Assembly (NCBI GenBank): GCA_026389585.1
Contig: JAPLHP010000012.1
Location: 1-38,654 of the forward strand
Origin: Chloroflexota bacterium
GTDB lineage: Bacteria > Chloroflexota > Dehalococcoidia > UBA2247 > RBG-13-53-26
Length of the DNA stretch: 38,654 nucleotides
Reading direction: 5' to 3'
Part shown: positions 3,515 to 34,109 of the stretch, piece by piece
Numbering within the stretch: the first letter of the stretch is position 1
Layout: each line of letters begins with the position of its first letter
Translations under genes and position numbers: made by a program
Notes under the pieces: generated by a model
Told to the model about the DNA's origin: nothing
The model's database searches: none
Seen by the model: only the letters and a program-made list of their open reading frames with translations

Positions 3515-4222
3515 ATGGCAAAACATGGTAAGAAGTACGAAGAGTCTATCAAACTAGTAGAACAAGATAAGGCATACTCCCTGAAAGAAGCCGTCGATCT
3601 GGCGAAAAAGACGGCTCATGCCAAATTCGATGAAACCGTGGAACTCCATCTTCGCATGAACCTGGACCAGCGTGCTGCTGACCAGCAGATAAGAGGCATT
3701 GCCCTGCTTCCCAATGGGCTCGGAAAGAAGATCCGCATCCTGGTCTTCACCCAGGGCGAGGGCGTAAAGGCTGCAGAGGAAGCTGGAGCAGACTATGTGG
3801 GTGGTGATGACATGATTAAGAAAATCGAGGAGGGATGGCTCGATTTTGATGTCACTATTGCCACCCCTGACATGATGGGGAGAATAGGTAAGCTTGGCAA
3901 GATACTTGGTCGCAAAGGGCTCATGCCAAATCCGAAGTTGGGCACTGTAGTCGCTGCCTCGGATATCCCGAGAGTAATCAAGGATGCCAGCAAGGGTCGG
4001 GCAGAGTTCAAGCTGGATCGTACGGGCAACATCCATTTGGCTATAGGAAAGATAAGTTTTGAGACAGACAAGCTTGTGGAAAACTTGGCTGCAGCACTGG
4101 AAGCAATAGTCAAGGCTAAGCCCAGCGGATCAAAAGGCCAGTATGTAAAGAGCGCTACAATATCGACCTCAATGGGCCCTGGTATCACCCTCGACCTAAA
4201 ATCTGCCCTGAGCACAGATTAA
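3515..4222 (+). CDS. rplA: 50S ribosomal protein L1
   Basis: 235 residues, the usual length. The signature [14 protein letters not shown] is present, with the N-terminal [15 protein letters not shown] and central [23 protein letters not shown]1 binds the mobile stalk of 23S rRNA and in many bacteria also represses its own operon. The usual next gene, rplJ, does not follow directly: two acyl-CoA-condensing-enzyme genes intervene. Confidence 0.97.
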
Positions 4223-4318
4223 GGGCAAGATGAGTTCAACTCCAAAGCCGTCGTTCTTACGGCAAGGGTTTGCATATCTATATCTATGTAAGAAAACCAT
4301 CACGGAAGGAGCAGAAGA

Positions 4319-5737
4319 ATGCCAGGTATAGTTTCGTATGGTGCTTATGTCCCTATCTATAGGCTGAGCCGAGAGGCCATCGGTGCGATGTGGAACAAGG
4401 CCGTCGCAAAGGGCGAGAAGGCCGTGGCCAACGCCGATGAGGACACTGTAACCATGGGAGTGGAAGCCGTCCTGGACTGTCTGAACGGCATGGACCGCAA
4501 CCAGGTGGACGGCCTTTACTTCGCCACCGACTCGCCGCCCTACGTTGAGAAGCAGTCCGCTAGCATAATAAGGGCGGCTACGGACCTTCGCGAAGACATT
4601 CTAACATTCGATGTCTCCCACTCGCTTAGGAGCGCCGGTTCTGCCATGAAAGCAGCCATGGACGCAGTGAAGGCTGGGTCGGCCAAGAGGGTGATGGTGG
4701 CTGCTGCCGAGCGCCGCATACCCGCCCCGAATTCAGAGTTCGAGCTGCAGTTTGGAGATGGAGCAGCAGCATTCCTCGTTGGTGACACTGACGTAGCTGC
4801 GTCATTGGAAGGCAGCTATCATATCTCCAGCCAATTCGTCGACATCTGGAAGAAACCCCAGGATACCTATATGCAGTCGTGGGAGGATCGGTTTGTCCGT
4901 GACGAAGGCTATATGAAGATGATACCTCAGGCCGTAGCCGGGCTCCTGAAGAAGCTTGGACTGACCCCCAAGGCCATCACCAAGGCGGCCTTCTACGGAC
5001 CCGACGCCAGGACTCATGCCTCAATCGGCAGCGCTATGGGCCTCGACCCAAAGACGCAGATTCAATCTCCCCTACTGGAGAGCATCGGCAACACCGGTAC
5101 AGCCCTGGCCCCCATGATCCTGGTGGCTGCTCTCGAAGAGGCTAAGCCCGGCGACTTGATACTGTTCGCTACCTACGGTGATGGCGCCGACGCCTTCCTG
5201 TTCAAAGTAACCGACCAGATTGACAAGGTTAGGAACAGGAGGGGAGTAAAGCGCCACCTGGCATCTAAAATGATGCTCCCCAACTATGGAAAGTACGTCG
5301 AGATACGTGAGCTCATGGAGGGCGAAGCGGGACGCCGTCCAGCCCGCAGATCATCCCTGCCAGTCATATGGCGCGAGAGACAGCACCTGTTCCCTCTCTA
5401 TGGGCAGAAGTGCCGTTCCTGCGGCAACATCCAGTACCCCAAGCAGAGGATCTGCATTTATTGTCAGGCGAAGGATAACTTTGAACTCATCAGGCTCTCC
5501 GACAAGACAGGAAAGGTTTTTACCTTCAGTATGGACCAGAGGGCCGTGGAGATCGTTCTGCCCAAGGTATTCACCGTGGTCGACCTCGACGGCGGCGGCA
5601 GGTTTTATAGTGTCATGACCGACCGCGATCCTTCGAAGGTTGCACTTGGGATGCCTGTGGAGATGACCTTCAGAATACAACTGGAGGGATCTGGCCTCTA
5701 CAACTACTTCTGGCGAGTCCGCCCAATCAGATGCTAA
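4319..5737 (+). CDS. HMG-CoA synthase-like protein fused to DUF35 zinc-ribbon/OB-fold domain; catalytic Cys absent
   Basis: 472 residues. Residues 1 to about 300 have the thiolase-superfamily fold of archaeal-type HMG-CoA synthase (GIVSYGAYVPIYRLSRE; FGDGAAAFLVGD; ESIGNTGTALAPMIL; FATYGDGADAFLF). Residues from about 350 on are a DUF35 domain with a zinc ribbon (Cys365, 368, 379, 382) and an OB fold. The nucleophile segment, normally of ACKAGTA type, reads SLRSAGSA (residues 102-109), placing Arg104 where Cys is expected. The region of the catalytic His reads FYGPDARTH, with Tyr226. No other Cys lies in the synthase half except Cys54, far from that motif. It may therefore be a structural or acyl-CoA-binding subunit of a complex with the thiolase 10 bases downstream. 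A good GGAAGGAG site precedes ATG 4319. The name HMG-CoA synthase should be taken as fold, not reaction. Confidence 0.82.
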   Translation: MPGIVSYGAYVPIYRLSREAIGAMWNKAVAKGEKAVANADEDTVTMGVEAVLDCLNGMDRNQVDGLYFATDSPPYVEKQSASIIRAATDLREDILTFDVSHSLRSAGSAMKAAMDAVKAGSAKRVMVAAAERRIPAPNSEFELQFGDGAAAFLVGDTDVAASLEGSYHISSQFVDIWKKPQDTYMQSWEDRFVRDEGYMKMIPQAVAGLLKKLGLTPKAITKAAFYGPDARTHASIGSAMGLDPKTQIQSPLLESIGNTGTALAPMILVAALEEAKPGDLILFATYGDGADAFLFKVTDQIDKVRNRRGVKRHLASKMMLPNYGKYVEIRELMEGEAGRRPARRSSLPVIWRERQHLFPLYGQKCRSCGNIQYPKQRICIYCQAKDNFELIRLSDKTGKVFTFSMDQRAVEIVLPKVFTVVDLDGGGRFYSVMTDRDPSKVALGMPVEMTFRIQLEGSGLYNYFWRVRPIRC

Positions 5738-5747
5738 GGAGAAGAGA

Positions 5748-6962
5748 ATGGAAAGCTTAAAGGATAAAGTAGCTATCGTCGGAATGGGTTGCACCCCCTT
5801 CGGGGAGTTTTGGGATAAGGACCCTGTCGACCTCATAGTCGATGCGGCCACCGAGGCTTTCGAGGATGCTGGCATCACGTCAAAAGAAATTCAGGCGGCC
5901 TGGGTGGGATACACCAATCAGGACAATGCTATGACTGGCATCATTCTCTCTAGTGCTCTTCAGCTCCAGTTTATCCCCGTAACACGCGTGGAAAACGCTT
6001 GCGGCACCGGTGCCGAGACATTCAGGGGAGCTGCACTGGGCCTCGCATCCAAAACCTATGACCTGGTGCTGGCCCTGGGCTGGGAGAAGATGAAGGACGC
6101 CGGGTTTGGCGGTATTGGCCAGGCATACCCCGGCAAATGGCATCCAGTCTATGGTGCCGCTCCCGAAGTCGGCGGGGCTGTGGCCCGGTACGCCCTGGCA
6201 GCAACCAAGTATTTTGCTAGATACGGACTCAGCCCGGAAGAGGGCAAACGCCTGCTGGCCAAGATATCGGTCAAGAGCCACTACAACGGCTCTCGCAACC
6301 CCAAGGCGATGTTGCGCAACAGGATAACCATAGAACAGGTACTGAACGCTCCTATCATAGCCTGGCCACTGGGTCTATTTGACTGCTGCGGAGTCTGCGA
6401 CGGTGCATCTGCCGCTATCATGTGCCGCACCGAGGATGCCAGGCACTTCCGGCCCAAGGGAGATTACATTACCATCAAGGCTTCTGCCATTGCCTGCGGA
6501 CCAGGCTGGGGCAAGGAGAGGACGAACTACGAATACACGACCTGGGAAGAGACAGAGGCGGCCGCCAAGCAGGCTTATGCCATGGCTGGAATCAAGAACC
6601 CCAGAAAGGAGCTCAGCATGGCCGAGGTCCATGACTGCTTCTCCGTAGCAGAGATGATAGCCGTGGAGTCTATGGGCATATGCGAAAAGGGCCATGCCAA
6701 AGACGACATCGACTCCGGGGCCTGGGAGCAGGGAGGCGAGATCCCCATTAACGTCAGCGGCGGGCTCAAGGCCTTCGGACACCCGGCGGGCGCTAGCGGA
6801 GGTCGTGAGGTATACGAGTTCTACAAGCAATTCCAGGGCAAGGCCGAAGATTCCACCCGTCAATTGAAAGACGTGAAGATGGGGTTGGCCCATAACCAGG
6901 GTGGTCATCCCGGCAACTTTGTATGTGGCATCACCATCGTCGGTGAGCCGCCATCTTTATAA
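5748..6962 (+). CDS. SCP-x-type thiolase (acetyl-CoA acetyltransferase family)
   Basis: 404 residues. The nucleophilic cysteine is in ENACGTGAE (Cys85), the EVHDCF motif gives His295, and the GHPAGASGG motif gives His345. This is the non-decarboxylating/SCP-x type of thiolase found in archaea and many anaerobes rather than the classical FadA type. The C-terminal glycine loop HNQGGHPGN replaces the usual CxGGG motif. Family members cleave or form 3-oxoacyl-CoA, often with a DUF35 partner (archaeal thiolase-HMGS-DUF35 complex; BbsA/BbsB in anaerobic toluene breakdown). Here the DUF35 partner is fused to the upstream gene 10 bases away. The substrate is unknown; acetoacetyl-CoA is one possibility and a longer oxoacyl-CoA another. 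Confidence 0.88.
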   Translation: MESLKDKVAIVGMGCTPFGEFWDKDPVDLIVDAATEAFEDAGITSKEIQAAWVGYTNQDNAMTGIILSSALQLQFIPVTRVENACGTGAETFRGAALGLASKTYDLVLALGWEKMKDAGFGGIGQAYPGKWHPVYGAAPEVGGAVARYALAATKYFARYGLSPEEGKRLLAKISVKSHYNGSRNPKAMLRNRITIEQVLNAPIIAWPLGLFDCCGVCDGASAAIMCRTEDARHFRPKGDYITIKASAIACGPGWGKERTNYEYTTWEETEAAAKQAYAMAGIKNPRKELSMAEVHDCFSVAEMIAVESMGICEKGHAKDDIDSGAWEQGGEIPINVSGGLKAFGHPAGASGGREVYEFYKQFQGKAEDSTRQLKDVKMGLAHNQGGHPGNFVCGITIVGEPPSL

Positions 6963-6993
6963 GGAGGCCTTTCTTTTCCATAACCGCTTACTG

Positions 6994-6999
6994 TATAAT
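6994..6999 (+). promoter_or_regulatory. candidate -10 box for rplJ-rplL leader transcript
   Basis: A perfect TATAAT lies 31 bases after the thiolase stop, inside a short inverted repeat ACCGC...GCGGT. The -35 region (TTCTTT at 6971-6976, 17-nt spacing) is weak. It would give rplJL a transcript of its own, independent of the inserted thiolase genes. Confidence 0.45.
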
Positions 7000-7009
7000 A
7001 GGCGGTAAA

Positions 7010-7205
7010 GAATAAATTGCAGCATTGCCGTAGATAGCAGGTGTCCCCAGGGCTTAAAGTGTTTGCCTGCTGAGGCGAATCGGTAACCTCAGAAGCAGCT
7101 ATCTTTAGAGTCCCGGGGCAAGGTTAATGCTCAGGGGCCTATTTTTTTGAGCCCCTGCCCAACGAATGGAGCCAACCAGGGTTATCAAGTAATGCAAATG
7201 GGAGA
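7010..7205 (+). promoter_or_regulatory. ribosomal protein L10 leader (rplJ autoregulatory RNA)
   Basis: A structured 5' region before rplJ containing GTTTGCCTGCTGAGGCGAAT (7060-7079), close to the conserved GCCTGCCGAGG element of bacterial L10 leaders, and AGTCCCGGGGCAAGG. It is followed by a hairpin CAGGGGC (7132-7138)/GCCCCTG (7151-7157) whose 12-nt loop holds a T7 tract. In other bacteria the L10-L7/L12 complex binds such leaders and represses rplJL. The call is by motif and position. Confidence 0.65.
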
Positions 7206-7211
7206 AAATAG

Positions 7212-7736
7212 ATGATACGAGAAAAGAAAGAAGAGAATGTCAAGAAAGTCGAGGAGCTGCTTTCAAGTTGCACAATAGCTATTGTTACTGACTATCGGGG
7301 AATGCCGGTCAGTGAGCTGAGCAAACTGCGCCGCCAGCTAAAGGAATCTGGAATCAAGTATCATATCGTCAAGAACAGCCTGGCTTCCCTTGCAGCAGAG
7401 AAGAGCGGTAAAGAGGAACTGAAGAATCTCCTCAAGGGCCCTTCGGCAATAGCCTTTGGCTATGGCGAGGTTAACCAGCCAGCCAAAGTCCTGACCGACT
7501 ACATTCGCACGTCCAAACAGTCCCTCAGCATTAGGGGAGGCGTCCTGCAGAAGCGGTCACTTACCGCAGCAGATGTATCAGCCCTTTCCTTACTTCCACC
7601 CAGGGAGGTATTGGTCGCTCAATTACTGCAGCAGATGCAAAAGCCCATTTACTCTATCGTGGCTGTCTTGAATGCTGAACTGACAGCACTTCCACGATTA
7701 CTACAAGCAAGAAAACAACAACTAGAAGGAGGTTAA
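7212..7736 (+). CDS. rplJ: 50S ribosomal protein L10
   Basis: 174 residues. The N-terminal rRNA-binding domain shows [20 protein letters not shown] and [12 protein letters not shown], and the C-terminal helix that carries L7/L12 dimers ends in [18 protein letters not shown] 7212 is preceded by GGGAGAA. It forms the stalk base with L11. rplL follows four bases after the stop. Confidence 0.96.
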
Positions 7737-7740
7737 GGTA

Positions 7741-8118
7741 ATGACCAAAGAAGAGATGATAGCCGTTATCAAAGCTATGACGGTTCTCGAACTGGCCGAG
7801 TTGATCAAGGCTCTGGAGCAGGAATTCGGAGTCAGCGCAGCACCAGTAGCTGTAGCTGGACCGGCAGCACCCGCAGCGGGCGCAGCAGCACCGGCGGCAG
7901 AGGAACAAACACAGTTCAGTGTTATCCTCAAGGAGATAGGCCCCAACAAGATCAATGTCATCAAGGCTGTTAGAGAGGTAACCACATTAGGATTAAAGGA
8001 AGCCAAAGAGCTCGTGGAAGGCGCGCCTAAGACAGTGAAAGAGGGGGCCTCAAAAGAGGAAGCAACCGCTGTTAAAGACAAGCTTCAGGCCGCCGGAGCA
8101 ACAGCCGAGATTAAGTAA
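7741..8118 (+). CDS. rplL: 50S ribosomal protein L7/L12
   Basis: 125 residues. The N-terminal dimerisation domain ([20 protein letters not shown]) is joined by an Ala/Pro-rich hinge (about residues 36-58) to the C-terminal factor-binding domain ([34 protein letters not shown]). AGGAGG lies 8 bases before ATG. The last bases overlap the 3' end of the opposing gene at 8111-8767 by 8 bp. rpoB does not follow, so the ribosomal block ends here. Confidence 0.97.
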
Positions 8119-16511: not shown

Positions 16512-17480
16512 GTGGGAAGTGGCGATTGTGTCTAGGACTCCAGGCTGGTCTCACCTCCCCCTTCAGCCCCAGATGGTCCCATGGAGCGTCTGTGAGGGTC
16601 TGGGATACTCCTAGATACCTCTCTGTGGTCTGGATCCTAGAATGCCCGAGACTCATCTGAATCTGGTCAAGTACGGCATTCCCTTTGTGTGCTAGTTTGG
16701 CGAAGGTTCTCCGTAGGTCGTGCGCTGCTATCCCCCCTGGAGCATAGGCAGTGACCACATCTGCTATTGCCTGATCGGTGAGGCTATCCCCGGTCACCCT
16801 GCCCCCCTTGTTCACTGGCCTGAAGATGCGGCCATTATCTATCTGAGCCATTGACGCCCATAGATCAACGGCATTCTTGGTCCAGGCCGGCATGGGTATG
16901 GTGCGCTTCCTGTTCCGCTTCCCTACCATGTCCACGATCACCCATCGGGATTCACGCATCTGGACGTGCTCAAAGGTAAGATTTGCCGCCTCGCTGCGTC
17001 GGAGTCCACACCCTATGAGAACAGACAAGATTGATCTGTCCCGGGTACTCTTCAAGGTGCTGCAGTTCGGTGAGTCCAGCAATTCCTGCGCTTGCTGCTT
17101 GGTCAGCCAGTTGCCGGTCCTGATGCCTTCGGAACGCATACCCTTAATGTTTTTGATACCGTTGGCAACCTCCAGAGGGATATGCCCAAGGTCTACTCTT
17201 CATTTACCAGCTTCCGAATGGCAGATAGTCTCTGGTTGATGTTCTGCGCTGACTTCCCCTGGTCCCTTAGTTCGGCGACATATCTCTGCACCACGGCCTT
17301 ATGCAGCACCATCTGGCCGGTGTTGCGATACCATAGAACGAAGTCATGCAGAGCTCGTCTATACGCGATCCTGCTGGCAGGACTATCCAGTGAGTCCAGC
17401 ACCACCATTGAATCCAGAGCCAGGTCCGCAATCAGCCTTGTCTCTCTTGGTTCGGCGACTACCATCAAAGCAGTTTCCAT
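16480..17480 (-). pseudogene. tyrosine recombinase/integrase, frameshifted
   Basis: ATG 17480, after GGAGGGGAG, opens the N-terminal SAM-like DNA-binding domain (SPASRIAYRRALHDFVLWYR; NINQRLSAIRKLVNEE), which stops at TAG 17195-17193. A one-base shift continues directly as VDLGHIPLEVANGIKNIKGM and then the catalytic domain: Arg in GCGLRRSEAANL, HDLRR, LGHSRIQTTERYLG with His and the nucleophile Tyr. All catalytic residues (R, H-x-x-R, H, Y) are intact and the gene is otherwise full length (about 330 residues). It is therefore recently broken, made by frameshifting, or a sequence error. It is an XerC/D-like phage or mobile-island integrase. It ends inside repeat copy 2 and points toward the cohesin gene, suggesting it belongs to the surface-protein island. 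Confidence 0.8.
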
Positions 17481-17605
17481 GTCTCCCCTCCTATCGGCGG
17501 CGCTAATCTGTCGTTATTTGTAGTCATTTCGGTGCCCTTTTTCCGTTGATAATTGGACAACTTTCGCTCCCCTGGCCGTTCGGGATGCCACATCGCAAAG
17601 CGTAG

Positions 17606-17630
17606 TATAATAACTTATAATGACGGTCAA
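17606..17630. promoter_or_regulatory. AT-rich divergent promoter region, pgk and integrase
   Basis: On the plus strand two TATAAT boxes (17606-17611 and 17616-17621) precede pgk, though neither has a good -35. On the minus strand TTGACC (17630-17625) followed by an AT-rich tract with TATACT could drive the integrase. The exact starts are uncertain. Confidence 0.4.
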
Positions 17631-17700
17631 GATGCCTCAATGCGGAGGCTCAATACGAGTTGGAGACATCTATCGTTAGAAAAATGGAGGAGGGCGAATA

Positions 17701-18891
17701 TTGAGCAAGAAGACAATAAGAGACATTGATGTGCGTGGCAAGAAGATATTAGTCAGAGTGGATTTCAATGTACCTCTGGATCCTCAGAGCGGAGCCATTG
17801 CTGACGACACCCGTATCCGTGAGTCAATACCTACCATAAAATACCTCCTTGATAACAAAGCTAAGGTCATCCTCTGTTCCCATTTGGGACGCCCCAGGGG
17901 CCCCGAGAAAGAGTCGAGCCTGGCCCCGATAGCACAACGCCTCTCTCAAATGCTCGGGCAAGAGGTGAAAATGGCCTCCGACTGCGTCGGGCCGGAGGTT
18001 GAACAGCTCGTCACTGATATGAAGCAGGGTGAGCTTCTTATGCTGGAAAACCTTCGGTTCCATCCTGAAGAGGAGAAAAACGACCCCGCCTTCGCCAAAT
18101 CCCTGTCTCGACTGGCAGAAGTATTTGTTAACGATGCCTTCGGTACTGCCCATCGGGCTCATGCTTCCACCGTGGGAGTAACCCAATATCTTCCTTCAGT
18201 AGCCGGCTTCCTTGTTGAAAGAGAGCTTGAAATTATGGGTAAAGCCTTGAACAACCCAGAGCGCCCCTTTGCGGCTATTATCGGCGGCGCGAAGATAAGC
18301 GACAAGATAGGCGTACTGGAGAATATACTCGATAAGGTCGATTCCCTGTTCATTGCCGGCGGTATGGGCTCTACTTTCCTGAAGTCCTTGAAATACGACA
18401 TGGGGCAATCCCTGGTAGAAAATGAGAAGATCGGAATTGCCCGACAATTGATGGACAAAGCTGCAGCAAAAGGAGTCCACCTGCTTCTCCCCTCGGATGT
18501 AATTGTGGCCAATAAGTTCGACGCCCAGGCCAACTCCAAGGTAGTCCCCATAAGTAACGTGCCTGCCGGCTGGTACGTCATGGATATCGGCCCGCGGACA
18601 ATCGAGCTTTTCGAAGCCAAACTGCGCAAGTGTAAAACGATCATCTGGAATGGCCCCGTCGGCGTGTTTGAATTCCCTCAATTCAGAAAGGGTACCCAGG
18701 CCGTTGCCACAGTTCTTGCCAGTCTCAATGCGACCACAATTATAGGTGGCGGCTCCACTGCCGAAGCAGTCCAGGAACTGGGCTTGGTTCATAAAATGAC
18801 CCACGTTTCCACTGGTGGAGGCGCTTCCCTCACGTTTCTTGAAGGGAAGCCCTTGCCAGCGATAGCTGCTCTGCTGGATAAGCAAGAATGA
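17701..18891 (+). CDS. pgk: phosphoglycerate kinase
   Basis: Interconverts 1,3-bisphosphoglycerate + ADP and 3-phosphoglycerate + ATP in glycolysis/gluconeogenesis. 396 residues from TTG 17701, supported by GGAGGAGG upstream and the N-terminus KTIRDIDVRGKKILVRVDFN. Signatures: VDFNVPLD, CSHLGRPRG, NDAFGTAHRAHAST, GGAKISDKIGV, WNGPVGVFE and the nucleotide site GGGSTAEAV/STGGGASLTFLEG. The final ATGA is shared with the start of apgM, indicating translational coupling. First gene of a glycolysis-led operon. Confidence 0.97.
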   Translation: MSKKTIRDIDVRGKKILVRVDFNVPLDPQSGAIADDTRIRESIPTIKYLLDNKAKVILCSHLGRPRGPEKESSLAPIAQRLSQMLGQEVKMASDCVGPEVEQLVTDMKQGELLMLENLRFHPEEEKNDPAFAKSLSRLAEVFVNDAFGTAHRAHASTVGVTQYLPSVAGFLVERELEIMGKALNNPERPFAAIIGGAKISDKIGVLENILDKVDSLFIAGGMGSTFLKSLKYDMGQSLVENEKIGIARQLMDKAAAKGVHLLLPSDVIVANKFDAQANSKVVPISNVPAGWYVMDIGPRTIELFEAKLRKCKTIIWNGPVGVFEFPQFRKGTQAVATVLASLNATTIIGGGSTAEAVQELGLVHKMTHVSTGGGASLTFLEGKPLPAIAALLDKQE

Positions 18892-20093
18892 CCATCTTAT
18901 CACAGCTCAGCCAGCTTTCCATTACGTCTACTGCCAAGATAGTCCTCGTGATCATGGATGGTCTGGGGGGACTTCCTCATCCCGAGACTCACAAAACCGA
19001 ATTGGAGACTGCTCAAACACCAAACCTCGACCGACTGGCAAAAGAAGGCATCTGCGGCCTCACTGAGCCCGTCAGCCCCGGCCTGACCCCCGGCAGCGGA
19101 CCGGGACACCTTGCTCTCTTTGGATACGATCCCTTCATATTCACCATCGGAAGGGGCATGCTGGAAGCGCTGGGGATAGATTTCCCCCTCCAGCCAGGCG
19201 ACATAGCAGCAAGAGGAAATTTCTGCACCATTGATGATAAGGGTCTCATTGTGGACCGCCGCGCTGGCCGCATCTCGACCGAAGAATGCAGTAGATTATG
19301 TCAACAATTAAGCGGGATCAAGATGCCTGGAATACAACCATTGGTTGCGCCGGCGGAAGAACATCGTTTCCTGCTGGTTTTGCGAGGCGAAAACCTCCAT
19401 CCTGAGCTCAGTGACTCTGACCCACAGCAGCTTGGTCTGGCTCCAAAGCAAATCCTTCCCCTTAACCCTGAGGCTACTCAAACTGCCACCCTGGCTAACG
19501 GGTGGATCACCAAAGCAAAAGCCATCCTGGCAGGTTCCCATCCGGCCAACATGGTCTTGCTGCGCGGCTTTTCAAAGTTGCCTCACTTCCCTTCTATGGG
19601 TGAACTCTACAAGCTGAAACCCTTAGCTATTGCCACTTATCCAATGTATCGAGGGCTGGCTAAGCTGGTTGGGATGAAGGTAGTAGACAGTGGCCATTCC
19701 ATAGAAGACGAGTTCATTGCCCTCGCCAGTCACTATGCCCAATACGACTTTGTTTTTCTTCACATCAAACAGACCGACAGCGCCGGTGAAGACGGTGACT
19801 TCATGAGGAAGGTCCGCGTTATAGAAGAGGTCGATGCAGCCCTGCCTCGCCTGATCAAACTCCAACCCGAAGTAATCATCGTCACCGGCGACCACTCCAC
19901 CCCCGCAGTACTGAAGGCTCATAGCTGGCATCCTGTACCCTTCCTTCTTTATTCGCAGTTCTGTAGACCAGATGAAGTAACTGAATTCTCCGAACGAGCT
20001 TGCTCCAGGGGTTCACTGGGTAGATTTCCTGCTTTGCAGGTAATGCCCCTGGCCTTAGCTAACGCACGGAGATTAAACAAATTCGGTGCCTGA
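18888..20093 (+). CDS. apgM: 2,3-bisphosphoglycerate-independent phosphoglycerate mutase, archaeal type
   Basis: 401 residues. Alkaline-phosphatase-superfamily enzyme converting 3- to 2-phosphoglycerate with two metal ions. VLVIMDGLGGLPHPE supplies the first metal Asp, LTPGSGPGHLALFGYDP the phosphoserine, HIKQTDSAGEDGDF and VTGDHSTPAVLKAHSWHPVP the remaining ligands. The size and the missing insertion domain mark the ApgM (archaeal) type, not the 510-residue GpmI. ATG 18888 overlaps the pgk stop by four bases. pgk-apgM-tpiA together cover the trunk of glycolysis. Confidence 0.93.
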   Translation: MTILSQLSQLSITSTAKIVLVIMDGLGGLPHPETHKTELETAQTPNLDRLAKEGICGLTEPVSPGLTPGSGPGHLALFGYDPFIFTIGRGMLEALGIDFPLQPGDIAARGNFCTIDDKGLIVDRRAGRISTEECSRLCQQLSGIKMPGIQPLVAPAEEHRFLLVLRGENLHPELSDSDPQQLGLAPKQILPLNPEATQTATLANGWITKAKAILAGSHPANMVLLRGFSKLPHFPSMGELYKLKPLAIATYPMYRGLAKLVGMKVVDSGHSIEDEFIALASHYAQYDFVFLHIKQTDSAGEDGDFMRKVRVIEEVDAALPRLIKLQPEVIIVTGDHSTPAVLKAHSWHPVPFLLYSQFCRPDEVTEFSERACSRGSLGRFPALQVMPLALANARRLNKFGA

Positions 20094-20106
20094 GGAGCGA
20101 AGATAT

Positions 20107-20868
20107 ATGCGTCTACCAATAATCGCTGGCAACTGGAAAATGAATACCACCGTCGACCAGGCTGTTTCACTTGTTCAAGATATGCTCAGCAAATTAGATA
20201 AGATAGATGGAGTAGAGAAGGTCATCTGCCCTCCCTTTGTCTCGCTTACCACCGTCAAGAAGCTTTTAGCTGGCTCCTCTGTCAAACTGGGAGCGCAGAA
20301 CCTGTATTTTGAGGAGAAAGGAGCCTACACCGGCGAGATTTCCCCCCTGATGCTGGCTGGTCTGTGCGACTACGTCATCCTGGGTCACTCAGAGAGGCGC
20401 CAATATTTCGCGGAGACCGATGAGACAGTCAACCGGAAGGTCAAAGCAGCCATCAAGGCCGGACTCAGGCCTATTCTCTGCGTTGGCGAAACCTTAGCGC
20501 AAAATGAGGCAGGCAAAACGGAGGAGGTAGTAACCAGACAGGTTAAAGGGGCTCTGGCTGAGATTGATTCCCCGCATCACCTTGTCATGGCTTACGAACC
20601 GATCTGGGCTATTGGCACGGGCAAGGCAGCTACAGGCAAACAAGCTAACCTGACCATCGGCCTTATCCGCCATGTTCTTTCCCGGCTATATGGTGATCCG
20701 GTGGCTCAGTCTATACGCATTCAATATGGCGGCAGCGTCACCGGCGCTAACATCGCCGAGTTTATCTCACAGTCAGAGATCGATGGGGCTCTGGTAGGAG
20801 GAGCCAGCCTGAAAGCCGCGGAATTCATCAGCATTGTAGAACAAAGTGCTGCAGCCAAGCGAGGATGA
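20107..20868 (+). CDS. tpiA: triosephosphate isomerase
   Basis: 253 residues from ATG 20107. A GTG at 20086 would add seven residues but would overlap apgM and hide the GAGGAGCGA ribosome site, so ATG is preferred. The TIM barrel is complete: IIAGNWKMNTT (Lys), CDYVILGHSERRQYF (His), YEPIWAIGTGKAAT (catalytic Glu and loop 6), IQYGGSVTGAN and DGALVGGASLKAAEF. The stop overlaps the miaA start by four bases (ATGA). Confidence 0.96.
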   Translation: MRLPIIAGNWKMNTTVDQAVSLVQDMLSKLDKIDGVEKVICPPFVSLTTVKKLLAGSSVKLGAQNLYFEEKGAYTGEISPLMLAGLCDYVILGHSERRQYFAETDETVNRKVKAAIKAGLRPILCVGETLAQNEAGKTEEVVTRQVKGALAEIDSPHHLVMAYEPIWAIGTGKAATGKQANLTIGLIRHVLSRLYGDPVAQSIRIQYGGSVTGANIAEFISQSEIDGALVGGASLKAAEFISIVEQSAAAKRG

Positions 20869-21785
20869 AGCCTGTCATTGCCATCGTTGGTCCCACCGGC
20901 ATAGGCAAGAGCAAACTGGGCCTTCTTCTGGCCCGGACCTTCAATGCTGACATTGTCAATGCTGACAGCCGTCAGGTCTATCGCTATATGGACATCGGCA
21001 CTGCCAAGCCGAGTCCTGAGGAACAACGTACTGTACCACACCATCTCATTGATATAATCAACCCCGACGACAACTTCAGTCTCGCCCTGTACCAATCGTT
21101 GGCTTACAGCAGCATCAAAGACATCGTGCAGCATGACAGGCTGCCACTAATGGTTGGGGGCAGCGGTCTTTACATATGGTCAGTTCTTGAAGGCTGGGAT
21201 ATCCCCAAAGCCCCTCCCAACCCCAACTTCAGGCGTCAGATGGAGGAAAGAGCATCCGTAGAAGGCATCGAGGCGCTCTACCGCCAGCTTCAAAGCATCG
21301 ATCCTGTCACCGCCATGAAGACAGATCCCCGCAACCTGCGCCGGGTGATCAGGGCTCTCGAGGTCTACGAAACAACCCGTAAATCCCCTTCGGAACTTCA
21401 AGGCAAAAGACCACCGCCGTTTGATATACTTATCATCGGGCTAACCACCCAAAGAGAGACGCTGTACAAGATGATTGACCGCCGGGTGGATGATATGATA
21501 AAGCAAGGGCTGGTGGAAGAAGTGAAAGGTCTGTTGAAGAGGGGTTACGGATTTGACTTATCGGCTATGTCCAGTGTAGGTTACAAGGAAATTGGCCAGG
21601 TCCTCCGGGGGGAATTGGATATGCTCACCGCCATCCAGAAGATAAAGTTTCAAACTCATCGTTTTGCCCGTCACCAGTACGCCTGGTTCCGTCTGCCCGA
21701 TCCCCGAATTCACTGGTTCGACATACAGGATGACCTTGAGAGGAACGTCCTCCACTTCATCAGGGAAAAAGTGACAATGCCATGA
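20865..21785 (+). CDS. miaA: tRNA dimethylallyltransferase
   Basis: 306 residues, the usual length. Adds an isopentenyl group to A37 of tRNAs reading UNN codons. The P-loop is VGPTGIGKSKLG, followed by NADSRQVYRYMDIGTAKPS, PHHLIDIINPDDNFSLALYQ, LMVGGSGLYIW and the C-terminal HRFARHQYAWFRLP. It is coupled to tpiA by an ATGA overlap and to the next lipoprotein gene by another. Substrate tRNAs in this window would include Ser(TGA) and Tyr(GTA). Confidence 0.96.
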   Translation: MKPVIAIVGPTGIGKSKLGLLLARTFNADIVNADSRQVYRYMDIGTAKPSPEEQRTVPHHLIDIINPDDNFSLALYQSLAYSSIKDIVQHDRLPLMVGGSGLYIWSVLEGWDIPKAPPNPNFRRQMEERASVEGIEALYRQLQSIDPVTAMKTDPRNLRRVIRALEVYETTRKSPSELQGKRPPPFDILIIGLTTQRETLYKMIDRRVDDMIKQGLVEEVKGLLKRGYGFDLSAMSSVGYKEIGQVLRGELDMLTAIQKIKFQTHRFARHQYAWFRLPDPRIHWFDIQDDLERNVLHFIREKVTMP

Positions 21786-22915
21786 ACAAGAGAGCCATCA
21801 CAACAATCGTCATCCTCCTTGTTCTAGCCTCCCTTGTCCTGACAGCTTGCCGCCAGGCCTCTCCAGAGGCTATCAACCTCAATGGGTTCAACGTCATCCT
21901 CAGCAAACCCAATGTCGAATTCCCCGACTCTATCACCTTTGACATCGATGTAGCAGCTAAAGCAGATATTTCCAGGATAACCTTTCAGTATCAGGTACAA
22001 AAATTGAGCGTGTTCCCGGTTACCAGCGTTGCCTTTCCACCATTTACATCAACGTCCAGAGTGAAAACGAGCTGGAAATGGGATATGACTCAAACCGGTG
22101 GATTGCCTCCCGGCACCGACCTGACCTACTGGTGGGCAATCGAAGATGCCGAGGGAAACACTGCTCAAACCCCTGTAAGCACCCTCAGCTTCGATGACCA
22201 GCGCCACTCGTGGCAAAGCTCATCCGAGAACGGGATAACCCTGCTCTGGTATCAAGGTAACGATTCCTTTGTGCAACAACTGATGACTGCAGCTAAAGGA
22301 GCGCTGGATAGACTGGCTGAAGATACCGGCGCTCGGCCAGAAGACAAGGTCAGCATATATATCTATGCCAGCACCCAGGATCTGCAGGATGCTATGCTTT
22401 ATCCCAACGAATGGACGGGGGGGGTCGCTTATAGCGAATACCACACTATAGCCATCGGCATCTCTCCGGACAACCTGGACTGGGGGAAAGGGGCCATGGC
22501 TCATGAACTGGCTCACCTCGTAGTCCATCAGGTTACCTTCAGTGGCTACGGTATTGAACTGCCCACCTGGCTCGACGAAGGGCTCGCTATGTATGCCGAA
22601 GGTAGTCTAGTCTCTGATATGGCAAGCGTATTGAAGAGTGCCATCACTCAAAACAAGCTCATCTCAGCCAGGAGTCTCTGCAGTCCTTTCCCTGCCGAGG
22701 CCGATGCAGCTATCCTGGCTTATGCCGAAAGCTACAGCCTGGTCAAATATCTCCTTGAACAACACGGCGGCCAAGCCAAAATGCTGGAACTGCTGAACGC
22801 CTTCAAGCAAGGTAGTGGTTATAACGAATCCCTGGATCGCGTATATGGCCTTGATATTGACAAACTGAATGACCTGTGGAGCACGTATATCAGACTGCAC
22901 CCTGTCGTCACTTGA
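21782..22915 (+). CDS. peptidase MA-like metallohydrolase lipoprotein
   Basis: 377 residues. A lipoprotein signal ends in LVLTAC (Cys23). An N-terminal beta-rich region of about 110 residues precedes a gluzincin-type peptidase domain with HELAH (His241, Glu242, His245) and the third zinc ligand in WLDEGLAMYAEG (Glu266). This arrangement is the 'peptidase MA family' pattern seen in many Chloroflexi lipoproteins. Its substrate is unknown; it would act on the outer face of the membrane. ATG overlaps miaA by four bases, and the next lipoprotein gene follows 11 bases later, perhaps working with it in peptide scavenging. Confidence 0.83.
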   Translation: MNKRAITTIVILLVLASLVLTACRQASPEAINLNGFNVILSKPNVEFPDSITFDIDVAAKADISRITFQYQVQKLSVFPVTSVAFPPFTSTSRVKTSWKWDMTQTGGLPPGTDLTYWWAIEDAEGNTAQTPVSTLSFDDQRHSWQSSSENGITLLWYQGNDSFVQQLMTAAKGALDRLAEDTGARPEDKVSIYIYASTQDLQDAMLYPNEWTGGVAYSEYHTIAIGISPDNLDWGKGAMAHELAHLVVHQVTFSGYGIELPTWLDEGLAMYAEGSLVSDMASVLKSAITQNKLISARSLCSPFPAEADAAILAYAESYSLVKYLLEQHGGQAKMLELLNAFKQGSGYNESLDRVYGLDIDKLNDLWSTYIRLHPVVT

Positions 22916-22926
22916 GGAAATAGCGA

Positions 22927-24531
22927 ATGCATAAGTCTACTCGGCGGTCAATCCTGCTGATACTGATTGCTTTCCTCTGTCTCAGTAGCGGCTGTGTTTC
23001 GCTGACACAGATTCAGTCTCAGCCTGTCTCCATCCCTCAGACCGATACTCTAACCCTTTATGACGCCAGTCCTCTGACACTCGACCCGGCAATCTCACAG
23101 GACACAGGTTCGCACACCTACATCATGCAGATCTTCAGCGGGCTGGTATCCCTCGACCAGGATATGAAGGTAGTGCCGGACATAGCCGAAAGGTGGGAGA
23201 CAGAGACCACCGCCAATGGCACCACCTACACCTTCTACCTCCGTCAAGATGTGAAGTTTCACGACGGCCGGGAGGTCACCGCTGCAGACTTCAAGTATTC
23301 CTGGGAGAGGGCCTGCCGCCCCGGGACCGGGTCTCCCACTGCCATTACCTACCTCAATGACATCGTCGGTGTAAAAGAGATGCTGGCCGGCACCGCAGAC
23401 AAAATTGAGGGCGTTCAGGTTGTTGACGACTACACTCTTCGAGTCACCATTGACCAGCCCAAGGCCTATTTCCTGGCTAAATTGACCTACCCTGTGGCCT
23501 TTGTAGTAGACAAGGCTAATGTAGAATCAGGCCAGGAGTGGTGGCGCAAACCCAACGGCACAGGGCCTTTCAAACTTGAAGGCTGGACACAAGGCGAACT
23601 CCTGCTCCTGGAGCGTAATGATCTCTACTATCGGGACAAAGCCAGGGTAGGTCATGTTGCCTTCCTGCTCTCGGGATCATCTATGCAGATGTATGAGAAT
23701 GGCGAAATCGACGTGACTGGGGTCTACCTGTCGGACCTGGAACGTGTTATGGATGAGGCCAATACCTTGCATGAAGAACTGACGGTGTTTCCGGAACTGA
23801 GCCTGACCTACATCGGGTTCGATACGACGAAGCCCCCCTTCGATAATCCAAAGGTACGCCAAGCCTTCTGCTCCGCTGTGGACAAGGCAAGAGTAGTAAG
23901 CCAGGTGCTCAAGGACTCGGTAAGCCCGGCATACGGGATTTTGCCCCCTGGCATGCCTGGTTATGATGAGCATTTTGAGGGGCTGAGCTACGATTTGGAA
24001 AAGGCAAAAAGCCTGCTGGTAGAGGCAGGGTACGGTAATGGCACTGACCTGCCTGTAATCATCTTTAATGTTCCCGGTGAGGGCGGCTATGTCTCAACCT
24101 CACTCACCGCTATCTTGTACGAGTGGGAGCAGAACCTGGGCGTAGAAATACAGATCAGACAGCTGGAATCCAACGCCTACTACTACCGCCTCGATGAGGA
24201 GAAGGATGAAGCCTTTTTCTTCGGCTGGGTGGCCGACTACGCCGACCCCCAGAACTTTTTAGAGATACTCTTCCGTACCGGGACTGCCAACAACATGGGC
24301 CAATACAGTAACCCCGGGGTTGACAGCCTGCTGGAACAGGCAGCGATAGAGCAGGACAGCAACAAGCGCCTTGATCTATACAAACAGGCCGAAGAGAAGA
24401 TGGTCAGCGATGCTGCCTGCCTGCCCCTCTGGTTCGGCAAAAACTACGTACTGGTCAAACCGTATGTAACAGGCTACAGTCTCAGCCCGCTCGGTATTCC
24501 CCTGCTCGTCAATGTGTCAGTTGACAAATAG
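22927..24531 (+). CDS. peptide ABC transporter substrate-binding lipoprotein (family 5)
   Basis: 534 residues. A lipoprotein signal ends in LSSGC (Cys23). The family 5 binding-protein pattern is clear: LTLYDASPLTLDPAISQDTG, AERWETETTANGTTYTFYLR, DVKFHDGREVTAADFKYSWE, NPKVRQAFCSAVDKARV, FFFGWVADYADPQNFLEILF and CLPLWFGKNYVLVKPYV. It resembles OppA/DppA oligopeptide-binding proteins. No permease or ATPase genes follow, so its transporter partner must be elsewhere. Last gene of the pgk-led run; it could collect peptides released by the neighbouring protease. Confidence 0.9.
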   Translation: MHKSTRRSILLILIAFLCLSSGCVSLTQIQSQPVSIPQTDTLTLYDASPLTLDPAISQDTGSHTYIMQIFSGLVSLDQDMKVVPDIAERWETETTANGTTYTFYLRQDVKFHDGREVTAADFKYSWERACRPGTGSPTAITYLNDIVGVKEMLAGTADKIEGVQVVDDYTLRVTIDQPKAYFLAKLTYPVAFVVDKANVESGQEWWRKPNGTGPFKLEGWTQGELLLLERNDLYYRDKARVGHVAFLLSGSSMQMYENGEIDVTGVYLSDLERVMDEANTLHEELTVFPELSLTYIGFDTTKPPFDNPKVRQAFCSAVDKARVVSQVLKDSVSPAYGILPPGMPGYDEHFEGLSYDLEKAKSLLVEAGYGNGTDLPVIIFNVPGEGGYVSTSLTAILYEWEQNLGVEIQIRQLESNAYYYRLDEEKDEAFFFGWVADYADPQNFLEILFRTGTANNMGQYSNPGVDSLLEQAAIEQDSNKRLDLYKQAEEKMVSDAACLPLWFGKNYVLVKPYVTGYSLSPLGIPLLVNVSVDK

Positions 24532-24595
24532 GGCAGCCTGCCGGAGCGCGCCATAGAGATTGGGGGCTGCACCTGCAGAGGAACTTTGCTGCTGG

Positions 24596-24682
24596 CGGAG
24601 GGGGTGGGATTCGAACCCACGCTCACCATAAGGCGAGAACGGTTTTCAAGACCGTCTCCATAAACCGCTCGGACACCCCTCC
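24596..24682 (-). tRNA. tRNA-Ser (anticodon TGA)
   Basis: Class II tRNA of 87 nt with a long variable arm. Acceptor GGAGGGG/CCCCTCC, anticodon stem ACGGT/ACCGT around CTTGAAA giving TGA, T arm GTGGG-TTCGAAT-CCCAC, discriminator G. The three bases after the discriminator (24595-24593) spell CCA on the minus strand, unlike the three tRNAs at the start of the window. The IS630 element begins 43 bases beyond its 5' end. Confidence 0.94.
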
Positions 24683-24725
24683 CCTTCGGTTATGTATGAT
24701 AGCATAACCATCTCCTATGTATCTA

Positions 24726-25853
24726 GTGTCATGACAGGCGTTCAAGTGACAATAACATCTCATCTGGGGATTTGGTCCATTGAAACCGCTTGCCTTCCCG
24801 ATTGAACTTCTCGACAAAAGCCAGAAGCCTGGCCACCAGGTCTGACTTAGAGGGAAAGATGCCGCGGGCCACCACTTTGGTTTGCACCAGGCTGAAGAAA
24901 AGCTCCACCAGGTTGAGCCACGAAGAATAAGTGGGCACGAAATGGAAGAAGACCTGATGATGGGACTCCATCCATAGCTGGACCTTCTTGGATTTGTGGC
25001 TGCTCACGTTGTGCAGCACCACGTGGATGGTCTCCTGTCGATAGTGCTTGACCACCCCATTCAAGAACCGCAGGAAGTCTTCCGAGCGATGTCGGTCCTG
25101 GCATCTGGCCTGCACCTGGGCAGCAGCCACCTCCAGGGCGGCAAATAGTTGAGTGGTGCCGTTGCGCTTGTCCTTCCCTGAGGAAGGATGGGTGCGCCGC
25201 GCTATCTGGTCTGGGCGCCTGAGCAAGGCAGGCTGTGTTCGGTCCAAGGCCTGAACCTGTGTCTTCTCGTCCACGCACAGGACCACCGCATTCTCTGGGG
25301 GAGCGGCATAAAGCCCAATCACATCCATCAGCTTCACTCGAAACTCCGGGTCGTTGGAGCGGGTGAAGGTACCCAACCGGTGGGGGCGCAGGTACGCCTC
25401 CCGCAATATCGCCCTCACAGTCTCACGGCCCACACCTGTGGCTTTGGCCAGGGTGCGAATACTCCAATGCGTCTCGCCTTCCGGAACCCCCGTGCACGCT
25501 ATCTCCACTACCCTGCGCCGGTCTTCCGCTGTGTATTTGATAGGCGTCCGCTTCTTGGCACGGTTCCTGAGCCCCGCCATGCGCTCCAGCGCGAAGCGAT
25601 TACGCCATAACGCCACACTGTGGGATGATAGGCCAACCTCCTCGGCAATTGCCTTGTTCTCCTTCCCTGCGGACGCCAGGAGCACGACCCGTGCCCTCAT
25701 CACCTCACGCTGGGTGGCTGTGCGAGCCTTCAGTCTACGCTCAAGCAAGTTACGCTCCCGGGCAGTCAACAGAATGGCAACAGCTCGTTTGCTCATGCCA
25801 CACAGCATAGCAGACTCACGGCCTTATGGCAAGGCAATCGCCTGTCAGAACAC
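24726..25853 (-). mobile_element. IS630-family insertion sequence, complete, with TA flanks
   Basis: 1128 bp. The left end GTGTCATGACAGGCG and right end (read inward) GTGTTCTGACAGGCG form a 15-bp imperfect inverted repeat with two mismatches. TA lies immediately outside each end (24724-24725 and 25854-25855), as expected for the TA target duplication of IS630/Tc1 elements. One transposase gene fills the element. It sits between tRNA-Ser and the DUF362 gene and disrupts nothing visible. Confidence 0.85.
24729..25808 (-). CDS. IS630-family transposase with a substituted catalytic residue
   Basis: 359 residues. N-terminal helix-turn-helix domain (LTARERNLLERRLKARTATQ; NKAIAEEVGLSSHSVALWRN), winged-helix region (HWSIRTLAKATGVGRETVRA) and DDE domain. 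The first Asp is in VLCVDEKTQVQALDRTQ and the final Glu in SSWLNLVELFF. The second Asp, normally in a VVLDN motif, is His here: IHVVLHNVSSHKS, codon CAC (plus strand 25015-25017 region) instead of GAC. One base change therefore probably inactivated catalysis. The stop codon lies inside the left inverted repeat. Start ATG 25808, or an internal Met (MSKRAVA) four codons later. Confidence 0.9.
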   Translation of the reverse strand: MLCGMSKRAVAILLTARERNLLERRLKARTATQREVMRARVVLLASAGKENKAIAEEVGLSSHSVALWRNRFALERMAGLRNRAKKRTPIKYTAEDRRRVVEIACTGVPEGETHWSIRTLAKATGVGRETVRAILREAYLRPHRLGTFTRSNDPEFRVKLMDVIGLYAAPPENAVVLCVDEKTQVQALDRTQPALLRRPDQIARRTHPSSGKDKRNGTTQLFAALEVAAAQVQARCQDRHRSEDFLRFLNGVVKHYRQETIHVVLHNVSSHKSKKVQLWMESHHQVFFHFVPTYSSWLNLVELFFSLVQTKVVARGIFPSKSDLVARLLAFVEKFNREGKRFQWTKSPDEMLLSLERLS

Positions 25854-26057
25854 TAGTCTGCATAGACACACCGCGCCCCGTACGGTGATATCTTTCATGA
25901 TTCAACGGGCCATCGTTCAGGCACCTTGTTAAATGAGTTGACACGGTCTTCATTGTCGATTGGAGTTTGACTGGTAACGCTTCTTGCAATCCTGAACGAA
26001 GCGAGGATTCTGGGGAACTGTCTGCCATAGTCTGGTAGGGATAACTGAGCACCGTGA

Positions 26058-32147: not shown

Positions 32148-34109
32148 CTAGATTTTCCGCCCAATCTCACTCCCATCGCGTATTGCCTCCACGCCTCTTC
32201 GGGGCTTGAAGGCATCGCCAATCACATATACTTCTCCCACTGTTCCTCGAATCTCCGCCGAAAGCATATCCCCAGGCTTAACGCCACAAGCCAAAACTAT
32301 TGTATCAAAGGCTTCCAATGTCTCCTCACTGCCATTCCGTGATACAACCACCCTGCCCTTAGGCTGGATCCCCTTGACCTTTGTAGATGTGAGCATCTGG
32401 ATGCTCTGTGTTCTTATTCTGTTCATAAGATGCCACCGAACCGTTGCCCCCATGTCAGCCCCAACACGTTTCAGTTGCTCTACCACTACGACCTCTTTCC
32501 CCTTTTGTGCCAAAAATTCAGCCGTCTCTATCCCAGTCATACCTCCTCCAATCACCAACACCCGGCGACCAGCTTCTTGGCCTCGCAGAATATCCCAGGC
32601 GGTAGTTACTTCTTCACAATCAACCCCGGTTATGGCAGGCACAAGAGGCATCGCCCCAGTGGCCACAACCACTACGTCAGGCTTTAACCTTCCCACCATT
32701 TCCAAAGAAACCTTCTTGCCCACATTCCGCTCTACCCCCAGTTTTTCAAGCTGCCAAGACAGATAATCCAAAAGCTTTATATGATCCTGTTTATGCGGAG
32801 GTTTGCTTGCCAGTATCCACTGCCCGCCAGTCTCTTCGTCCTCTTCATACAAACTGACCTCATGCCCCCTCAGAGCAGCAACTCTGGCTGCCTCCAAACC
32901 TGCCAGACCACCACCTATCACCAACACCTTCTTGGAGCGAGAAGCAGGCACAATTCCCATCTCTCTTTCTCTGCCTGCTTCGGGATTAACCGTACAAGTT
33001 ATCGGTTTTATGGCATTACCATCATCTATGCAGACATTGCAGGCAATGCATCTCCTGATTTCCCTGAACTCTCCTCTCAAAGCCTTGTTTGGCAGATCAG
33101 GGTCAGCCAGAAGACCCCTGGCTACAGCTATCAAATCAGCTTTCCCTGACACCAGCACTTCGTCCGCCACCCAGGGGTCGTCAAGCCGACCGGCAACTGC
33201 CACCGGAATCCTAACCACATCCTTGACCCCTTTCGACAGGTTGGCATTGCAGCCGCGCGGTTGATCATAGGGAGGCACGATAACAGGATACGAGCCGTAT
33301 GCCCCCCCTGAAACACCTATAAGATCAGCACCCGCCACCTCCAGTAAGCAAGCAGTGCGCTGTGCCATGTCCAGTGTCACCCCACCAGGTATATAGTCAG
33401 AGCCATTTATCCTGCAACTGACGGGGAAGCCCCTGCCCAACCTTTCCTTGATAAGCCTTACGATATCAACCACAAATCGGGCCCTTCCCTCCACACTGCC
33501 ACCATACTTGTCGCTCCGCTTATTAGTGTGGGGAGAAAGAAAGCTGCTTAACAAATAACCATGGCAGCCATGAAGCTCCACCAGATCAAAACCGGCATCC
33601 CTGGCCCGCCGGGCTGCCCCGGCAAATTTTTCTACCAGATCCTCAACCTCACTCGTGGTCAACTCTTTGGGTACCTCATCATACGGTGACAACGGAATTG
33701 GTGAAGGAGCCACTGGTTTGTAGCCCTTGATTTCTCCACCCTGTCTGCCAAGATGCATCAGTTGGATACCCATCAGAGCACCGTTAGAATGCACCAAGTC
33801 GGTTAATTCCTTCAGCCGAGGGATAACCTGATCATCATATATCCCTAGCTGGATAGGTGACGCCATGCTTATGTCAACAATTCCCGGCGTCAAGACTATG
33901 AGGGCAACGCCTCCCCTGGCACGAGCAGCATAGAAATCCTTCACCCTATCACTAACCCTGCCATCCACCGCCAATCGATCGATCATAGGTGGCATGATTA
34001 TCCTGTTCTTCAGTCTGAGTCTTCCAACCTTGATAGGCGTAAACAGTTTCTGCAATACTCTATCAGAGGACCTTGCAAGGGAATCTGTCTTGTCAATCTT
34101 TCCTGCCAT
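32148..34109 (-). CDS. NADH:flavin oxidoreductase / 2,4-dienoyl-CoA reductase family protein
   Basis: 653 residues. The N-terminal old-yellow-enzyme TIM barrel (FMN) shows LFTPIKVGRLRLKNRIIMPP, FDLVELHGCHGYLLSSFLSP and KRSDKYGGSVEGRARF. A [4Fe-4S] site follows with Cys354, 357, 360 and 372 (CIACNVC...TC). The C-terminal part contains two Rossmann folds: VLVIGGGLAGLEAARVAALR for FAD and VLVIGGGMTGIETAEFLAQK for NAD(P)H. This is the FadH/trimethylamine-dehydrogenase-like architecture used for reduction of enoyl or dienoyl substrates in anaerobes. The substrate is not predictable. It is 53 bases downstream of the hydrolase gene. Confidence 0.9.
   Translation of the reverse strand: MAGKIDKTDSLARSSDRVLQKLFTPIKVGRLRLKNRIIMPPMIDRLAVDGRVSDRVKDFYAARARGGVALIVLTPGIVDISMASPIQLGIYDDQVIPRLKELTDLVHSNGALMGIQLMHLGRQGGEIKGYKPVAPSPIPLSPYDEVPKELTTSEVEDLVEKFAGAARRARDAGFDLVELHGCHGYLLSSFLSPHTNKRSDKYGGSVEGRARFVVDIVRLIKERLGRGFPVSCRINGSDYIPGGVTLDMAQRTACLLEVAGADLIGVSGGAYGSYPVIVPPYDQPRGCNANLSKGVKDVVRIPVAVAGRLDDPWVADEVLVSGKADLIAVARGLLADPDLPNKALRGEFREIRRCIACNVCIDDGNAIKPITCTVNPEAGREREMGIVPASRSKKVLVIGGGLAGLEAARVAALRGHEVSLYEEDEETGGQWILASKPPHKQDHIKLLDYLSWQLEKLGVERNVGKKVSLEMVGRLKPDVVVVATGAMPLVPAITGVDCEEVTTAWDILRGQEAGRRVLVIGGGMTGIETAEFLAQKGKEVVVVEQLKRVGADMGATVRWHLMNRIRTQSIQMLTSTKVKGIQPKGRVVVSRNGSEETLEAFDTIVLACGVKPGDMLSAEIRGTVGEVYVIGDAFKPRRGVEAIRDGSEIGRKI

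Follow-up and report, generated by a model that had tools for sequence, protein, structure and literature searches.

An HMG-CoA synthase-like/DUF35 fusion without the synthase catalytic residues: a probable subunit of the adjoining thiolase in Chloroflexota

The gene pair and its architecture

The window, by which we mean the whole 38,654-nucleotide stretch of Chloroflexota DNA analyzed here, carries a gene pair between rplA and rplJ (window 3515-8118), in which an HMG-CoA synthase-like/DUF35 fusion is followed by a thiolase (Table 1). The names rplA and rplJ follow the rplK-rplA-rplJ-rplL gene order. ORF 4319-5737 on the forward strand encodes 472 amino acids, with the fold of archaeal-type HMG-CoA synthase in residues 1-335 and a zinc-ribbon/OB-fold DUF35 part in residues 351-470. 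The initial annotation had described the ORF as such a fusion, and both the Pfam domains and the phmmer matches confirm it. Two ACP_syn_III domains lie at or above their Pfam gathering scores, zf-ChsH2 and OB_ChsH2_C both exceed theirs (27.7 over 23.2 and 31.3 over 27.1 bits), and the best solved relatives both come from the archaeal thiolase/HMG-CoA synthase complex, namely its synthase (6ESQ_I) for the first part and its DUF35 subunit (6ESQ_E, E=2.3e-15) for the second. The coordinates and length, the strings SLRSAGSA and FYGPDARTH and the adjoining thiolase were likewise correct as annotated, as was the cysteine inventory of Cys54, the zinc ribbon and the last residue: the six cysteines are 54, 365, 368, 379, 382 and 472. 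The four of the zinc ribbon (365, 368, 379 and 382) are present in 140/140 full-length relatives.

An AlphaFold2 model of the fusion, built with 53 aligned sequences, reached a mean pLDDT of 91.7 and a pTM of 0.92. Its synthase part matches 6ESQ_I best in structure (Z 49.6, with an rmsd of 1.4 over 331 residues), ahead of CsATase (Z 47.7), PhlA (Z 46) and MucABC (Z 42). Each of these nearest folds is the synthase subunit of a three-part thiolase complex (6ESQ, CsATase, PhlABC and MucABC).

Table 1. Features of the locus in window coordinates, with the basis for each
Feature	Position	Strand	Basis
rplA (L1), upstream flank of the pair	3515..4222	+	position and homology among relatives
Pseudo-HMG-CoA synthase domain, residues 1-335, thiolase fold	4319..5323	+	phmmer to 6ESQ_I, E=5e-36, residues 3-330
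Asp71 codon, catalytic Glu column	4529..4531	+	alignment; among 140 relatives Glu 0, Thr 115, Asp 5
Leu103 codon, catalytic Cys column	4625..4627	+	alignment; among 140 relatives Cys 0, Leu 109
Tyr226 codon, catalytic His column	4994..4996	+	alignment; among 140 relatives His 0, Tyr 84
DUF35 part, residues 351-470, rubredoxin-like zinc ribbon and OB fold	5369..5728	+	PF12172, PF01796, 6ESQ_E
Partner thiolase, SCP2-thiolase-like	5748..6962	+	NF004810, 495.5 bits against a cut-off of 403; 6ESQ_A, E=1.2e-62
rplJ (L10), downstream flank of the pair	7212..7736	+	position among relatives

Catalytic columns and conservation in the family

Alignment with the archaeal HMG-CoA synthase (6ESQ chain I), a check that the initial annotation had proposed, shows that the catalytic Cys, His and Glu are all replaced in the fusion. 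Leu103 is the gap-free partner of the catalytic Cys114, which upholds the earlier claim that the nucleophile is missing; Tyr226 stands in the His column, turning what had been called an apparent loss into a firm one, and Asp71 occupies the Glu column. One detail did not hold: Arg104, previously placed in the nucleophile column, aligns to the Lys one residue past Cys114. The majority of relatives read (N/D)-S-L-R-A-G-T, a column-by-column fit to A-C-K-A-G-T. The catalytic-site Asn is kept, as Asn258. A KAS III from the same genome (contig 54), placed in one alignment with the fusion, carries the matching residue in each of the Cys, His and Asn columns, so the columns are correctly placed.

Relatives were drawn from 41 related genomes, together with 80 taken of at least 564 found in a scan of named genomes, giving 149 distinct sequences of at least 300 amino acids, of which 140 are full length (at least 440 amino acids); this sample leans toward relatives of the window protein. 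Record titles place them in Chloroflexota, above all Dehalococcoidia, then in Deltaproteobacteria/Desulfobacterales, Armatimonadetes, Thermoflexus and Desulfovirgula, and nearly all are metagenome-assembled genomes. None of the 140 distinct full-length relatives sampled has Cys, His or Glu in the respective catalytic column, where Leu, Tyr and Thr are the commonest residues (Table 1), so the substitutions are indeed kept in related genomes, which had been a further proposed check. The nine shorter rows also lack Cys, His and Glu, one row being gapped in two columns; they therefore offered no positive control, and the KAS III of the same genome served instead. An intact archaeal-type synthase was sought as a positive control in the 41 related genomes, and no TIGR00748 match exceeded the cut-off. 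Since every full-length relative examined shares them, the catalytic losses are a trait of the family and not a quirk of the window gene.

The window's genome holds five fusions, all without the Cys and all with intact frames, the other four being 46-50% identical to the first. Across the phylum the family is patchy, with a match at E<=1e-60 in 22 of 400 genomes. Plasmids carry it too: 61 records had one place covering 80% of the query, and 14 plasmid-borne fusions were hand-picked for breadth, with hosts among Sphingomonadales, Burkholderiales, Rhodocyclales, Tistrella, Rhodococcus, Mycobacterium, Streptomyces and haloarchaea. Cys (0/14, Streptomyces being gapped there), His (0/14) and Glu (0/14) are absent from these as well. 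Judged by such sequence matches, the fused type is widespread, from Chloroflexota to cultivated bacteria and the plasmids of haloarchaea.

Between the window and a 90% identical relative, dN/dS was 0.098 for the HMGS part, 0.085 for the DUF35 part and 0.036 for the thiolase; for the fusion in three further relatives it was 0.03-0.07, with dS saturated in some. Because these ratios are about 0.1 or lower, the dead synthase domain is under strong purifying selection and is kept by it.

Some genomes of the window's family or order that carry fusions also hold a second, unfused set of DUF35, thiolase and synthase-like genes (L078-L082), the last again without the Cys. The tree is a quick one with SH-aLRT support only. 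Its 105 rows are what was left of 161 after random thinning of the "other" rows, with own-genome copies retained, and the rows of Novosphingobium ES2-1 and Streptomyces sit on long branches. In it, four synthase-like proteins of the unfused set form their own branch beside the fusions.

Partner thiolase and gene surroundings

The thiolase starts 10 bases downstream of the fusion, and its best solved relative is 6ESQ_A, the thiolase of the archaeal complex (Table 1). Its catalytic residues are intact: Cys85 as the nucleophile, His295 and Cys297 of the HDCF motif and His345 of GHP. All four are invariant in 117/117 near-full-length adjacent thiolases (the alignment has 118 rows, since the window's thiolase is in twice, and shorter partners were left out), and the corresponding Cys, His, Cys and His are kept in 13/13 plasmid partners. 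Among the 130 distinct fusions (of the 140) whose loci extend at least 700 bp downstream, 123 are directly followed by a thiolase on the same strand. The seven without an adjoining thiolase include one of the five copies in the window's genome, where the other four are followed by one. That copy lies on contig 3, at about 17000-26000, among genes that by eye resemble those for an FAD oxidoreductase, a family III CoA transferase and an enoyl-CoA hydratase. Pair distances of the partners are correlated (Mantel rho 0.55 for HMGS-thiolase and 0.65 for DUF35-thiolase, with 0 of 499 permutations as high; rho 0.68 among 59 within-genome paralogue pairs), although in only 71 of 117 pairs do the pseudo-synthase and the thiolase agree on the nearest relative.

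A fusion follows rplA in 10 of the 36 related genomes in which rplA was found (41 searched), including 8/8 testable genomes of the window's own family. In 21 of the 36, rplA and rplJ lie 4-397 bp apart with no insertion, and in the remaining 5 rplJ was not found near rplA. Over the related and named loci together, 20 have fusions after rplA, with rplJ seen on the far side in 17. The loci with an occupied slot include L098, L099, L055 and L174; tandem arrays of two or three fusions occur in some, and in L124 and L127 the fusion is preceded by an additional thiolase. The 23 ribosomal copies are scattered over the branches of the family and need at least 10 changes of place on the tree, so the rplA-rplJ slot appears to have been filled or left many times. 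A locus labelled Deltaproteobacteria (L127/L124) shows the ribosomal-slot arrangement with a fusion nearest to a Dehalococcoidia one, and may be a mislabelled bin or a transfer. In the window, the 249-base gap before rplJ (6963-7211) contains TATAAT and a GC-rich inverted repeat with a run of T between its arms, both read by eye, which are perhaps a promoter and leader of rplJL. The Rfam search gave no L10-leader match at the gathering threshold between thiolase and rplJ, returning three tRNAs only, and a promoter/terminator scan found sites no more numerous than in shuffles.

HMG-CoA reductase (PF00368), sought as a marker of the mevalonate pathway, was found in 0/41 genomes, including the window's own (assembly about 95% complete), several of the 41 being incomplete. 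The same search found the reductase in 5/14 named genomes, which served as its control, and IspH was found in 32/41 genomes. The 129 proteins near 70 non-ribosomal fusions of the named loci include 17 acyl-CoA dehydrogenases, 11 enoyl-CoA hydratases, 11 SDR proteins, six 3-hydroxyacyl-CoA dehydrogenases and five family III CoA transferases, a tally of raw counts without a background control. The plasmid pairs often lie beside genes for MaoC, SDR, acyl-CoA dehydrogenase, enoyl-CoA hydratase, CoA transferase or ring-hydroxylating dioxygenase. These surroundings point to acyl-CoA breakdown, and most members of the family probably serve a beta-oxidation-like breakdown of unusual acyl-CoA compounds. 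Elsewhere in the window (32148-34109, reverse strand) lies a gene for a 653-aa FMN/FAD oxidoreductase (PF00724 and PF07992), presumably of the 2,4-dienoyl-CoA reductase build.

Function of the fusion and comparison with known systems

On the present evidence it is quite probable that the fusion is a dead HMG-CoA-synthase fold with its own DUF35 bridge, acting as the obligate second subunit of the downstream thiolase. The best reading by analogy would make it the non-catalytic subunit of a two-gene thiolase, comparable to PhlA within PhlABC but with DUF35 fused on. The initial annotation had proposed a synthase-like, non-catalytic subunit paired with an intact thiolase, which the absence of Cys from all 140 full-length pseudo-synthases and the retention of thiolase catalytic residues in 117/117 partners support; the likeness it saw to the archaeal thiolase-DUF35-HMGS complex, with one partner fused, agrees with best matches to 6ESQ_I, 6ESQ_E and 6ESQ_A. 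We infer that fusion and thiolase would assemble in the manner of PhlABC or of the archaeal complex. In such a complex DUF35 would bridge the thiolase and the pseudo-synthase, and the fusion as a whole would both bridge and complete the thiolase, an assignment made because of the analogy with PhlA in PhlABC and the role of DUF35 in 6ESQ. The dead pocket would open into the thiolase active site and could accommodate CoA or the substrate's bulky acyl tail. The chemistry would be carried out by the thiolase alone, with Cys85 as acyl carrier and His295/Cys297 and His345 as acid/base.

Of the other explanations, the one that deserves most attention is repurposing, in which the fusion would be an enzyme that relies on another catalytic group, such as Ser102 or Cys54, although we consider this unlikely. 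A search for a catalytic replacement among the conserved residues brought up these two candidates, and neither fits well. Ser102, kept in 125/140 relatives, adjoins the nucleophile column but sits in the Ala column before it, where Cys, Thr, Gly and Ala also occur; Cys54, a family-specific residue kept in 129/140, is Ala or Ser in the other 11, is Ala in 6ESQ and PhlA, and is placed by the AlphaFold2 model where an early helix ends. Arg133 (140/140) and Arg231 (131/140), neither of which the archaeal synthase has, would suit a new activity, and the authors who described the edc oestradiol cluster of Novosphingobium tardaugens suggested other activities, such as thiolase, for their homologue, the unassigned "HMG-CoA synthase" EGO55_13555. 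The His and Asn columns, however, drift widely, unlike those of an active site.

The ribosomal position invites the idea of a moonlighting translation factor whose DUF35 acts on mRNA or the ribosome, and an archaeal DUF35 protein, Trf, does act in translation recovery. We find this hard to accept, since the fusions in the ribosomal slot are followed by an intact thiolase wherever the locus is long enough, except at L122, many other members lie in acyl-CoA gene neighborhoods, and in 21 of the 36 genomes nothing is inserted between rplA and rplJ. Still less credible is a true HMG-CoA synthase or KAS III misread by alignment. The PRK04262 (NF003274) score of 231.6 bits comes near its cut-off of 244, but TIGR00748 gives 178.9 bits against a cut-off of 353.35, the Cys segment is gap-free, the expected residues stand in those columns in the same-genome KAS III, and none of the 41 genomes has HMG-CoA reductase; the fusion has the fold of an archaeal-type HMG-CoA synthase and lacks its Cys, His, Glu and curated scores. 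We give next to no weight to a decaying pseudogene or leftover of a former synthase: three catalytic residues are lost, but dN/dS is near 0.1 or lower in four comparisons, the frame is intact in all five copies of the window's genome and the zinc ligands persist in 140/140 relatives.

A thiolase subunit of the kind that we prefer may also account for the oestradiol gene. On plasmid p3 of Novosphingobium sp. ES2-1, the gene order matches the edc cluster and a fusion lies beside a thiolase, so that EGO55_13555 is the counterpart of this fusion by gene order. The ES2-1 fusion (467 aa), a distant relative on a long branch of the tree, carries Leu in the Cys column, Ser in the His column and Thr in the Glu column. 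Because the order matches, this fusion is without the catalytic residues and its adjoining thiolase is intact, the edc "HMG-CoA synthase" gene is likely, by analogy, a dead subunit of the adjoining thiolase. A wider proposal, to which we give somewhat less than even credence, is that of a large and unnamed two-gene thiolase family. The protein labelled "HMG-CoA synthase" or KAS III would be its obligate dead subunit and would keep ring-bearing acyl tails in an empty active-site pocket for the thiolase beside it. Such a family would explain the misfit "HMG-CoA synthase" of oestrogen degradation, and in Dehalococcoidia its copies would have come to occupy the rplA-rplJ slot on more than one occasion, linking a thiolase to ribosome synthesis. 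Genes of the fusion type are named HMG-CoA synthase, 3-oxoacyl-ACP synthase III or OB-fold protein, and these names invite wrong pathway assignments. If the proteins are dead thiolase subunits, the puzzling step in oestrogen degradation becomes one thiolase encoded by two genes, expression of single genes would be expected to fail for many catabolic thiolases, and the family offers a set of natural pseudoenzymes in which to ask why a lost active site is kept.

The nearest and direct precedent for the fusion is PhlA in PhlABC (PpATase of Pseudomonas protegens; 5M3K/5MG5), which the initial annotation did not name. According to its description (PMC6392133), PhlA is without the key Cys, with Gly115 in that column, and without the Glu; acyl transfer involves residues of PhlC only, one cavity is lined by PhlA, PhlB and PhlC, and a functional enzyme needs the whole operon expressed, with all three subunits. 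PhlABC thus resembles the fusion pair in having a dead HMGS fold, a separate intact thiolase-fold subunit and a DUF35 component, and against the fusion model PhlA and CsATase (9SKH) score Z 46-48 and MucABC (9VBO) 42. It differs in that its DUF35, PhlB, is a separate protein, whereas here DUF35 is fused to the C-terminus, and in that PhlABC acylates phenols without CoA, whereas the fusion family sits in acyl-CoA degradation neighborhoods. PhlA had already been described as an inactive member in PMC2954200, which also mentions proteins of the thiolase superfamily fused to DUF35. Among the open-access papers listed in our searches, none was seen to treat the fused pair or its ribosomal-operon location.

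The archaeal acetoacetyl-CoA thiolase/DUF35/HMG-CoA synthase complex (6ESQ, 6ET9) has the same three components and provides the best sequence match for each, but its synthase has Cys114 and works in the mevalonate pathway, and its DUF35 is separate. In both 6ESQ and PhlABC, DUF35 holds synthase and thiolase together, mainly as a bridge between the larger subunits, as stated in PMC12329534; the initial annotation had proposed that the fusion presents CoA substrates through this domain. The benzoylsuccinyl-CoA thiolase BbsAB and the Ltp2-ChsH2 and Sal-Shy aldolases likewise join a thiolase-fold catalytic subunit to a DUF35 partner in the degradation of ring compounds; unlike the fusion pair, they are described, in the excerpts available, with no HMGS-like subunit. 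The MaoC domain of ChsH2 offers a parallel: according to PMC11321319, this dead partner is without catalytic residues and modified to accommodate steroid rings. Because an inactive PhlA has been published, the kind of subunit represented by the fusion is already known, and its two-gene, fused form and its breadth make it a variant of that kind.
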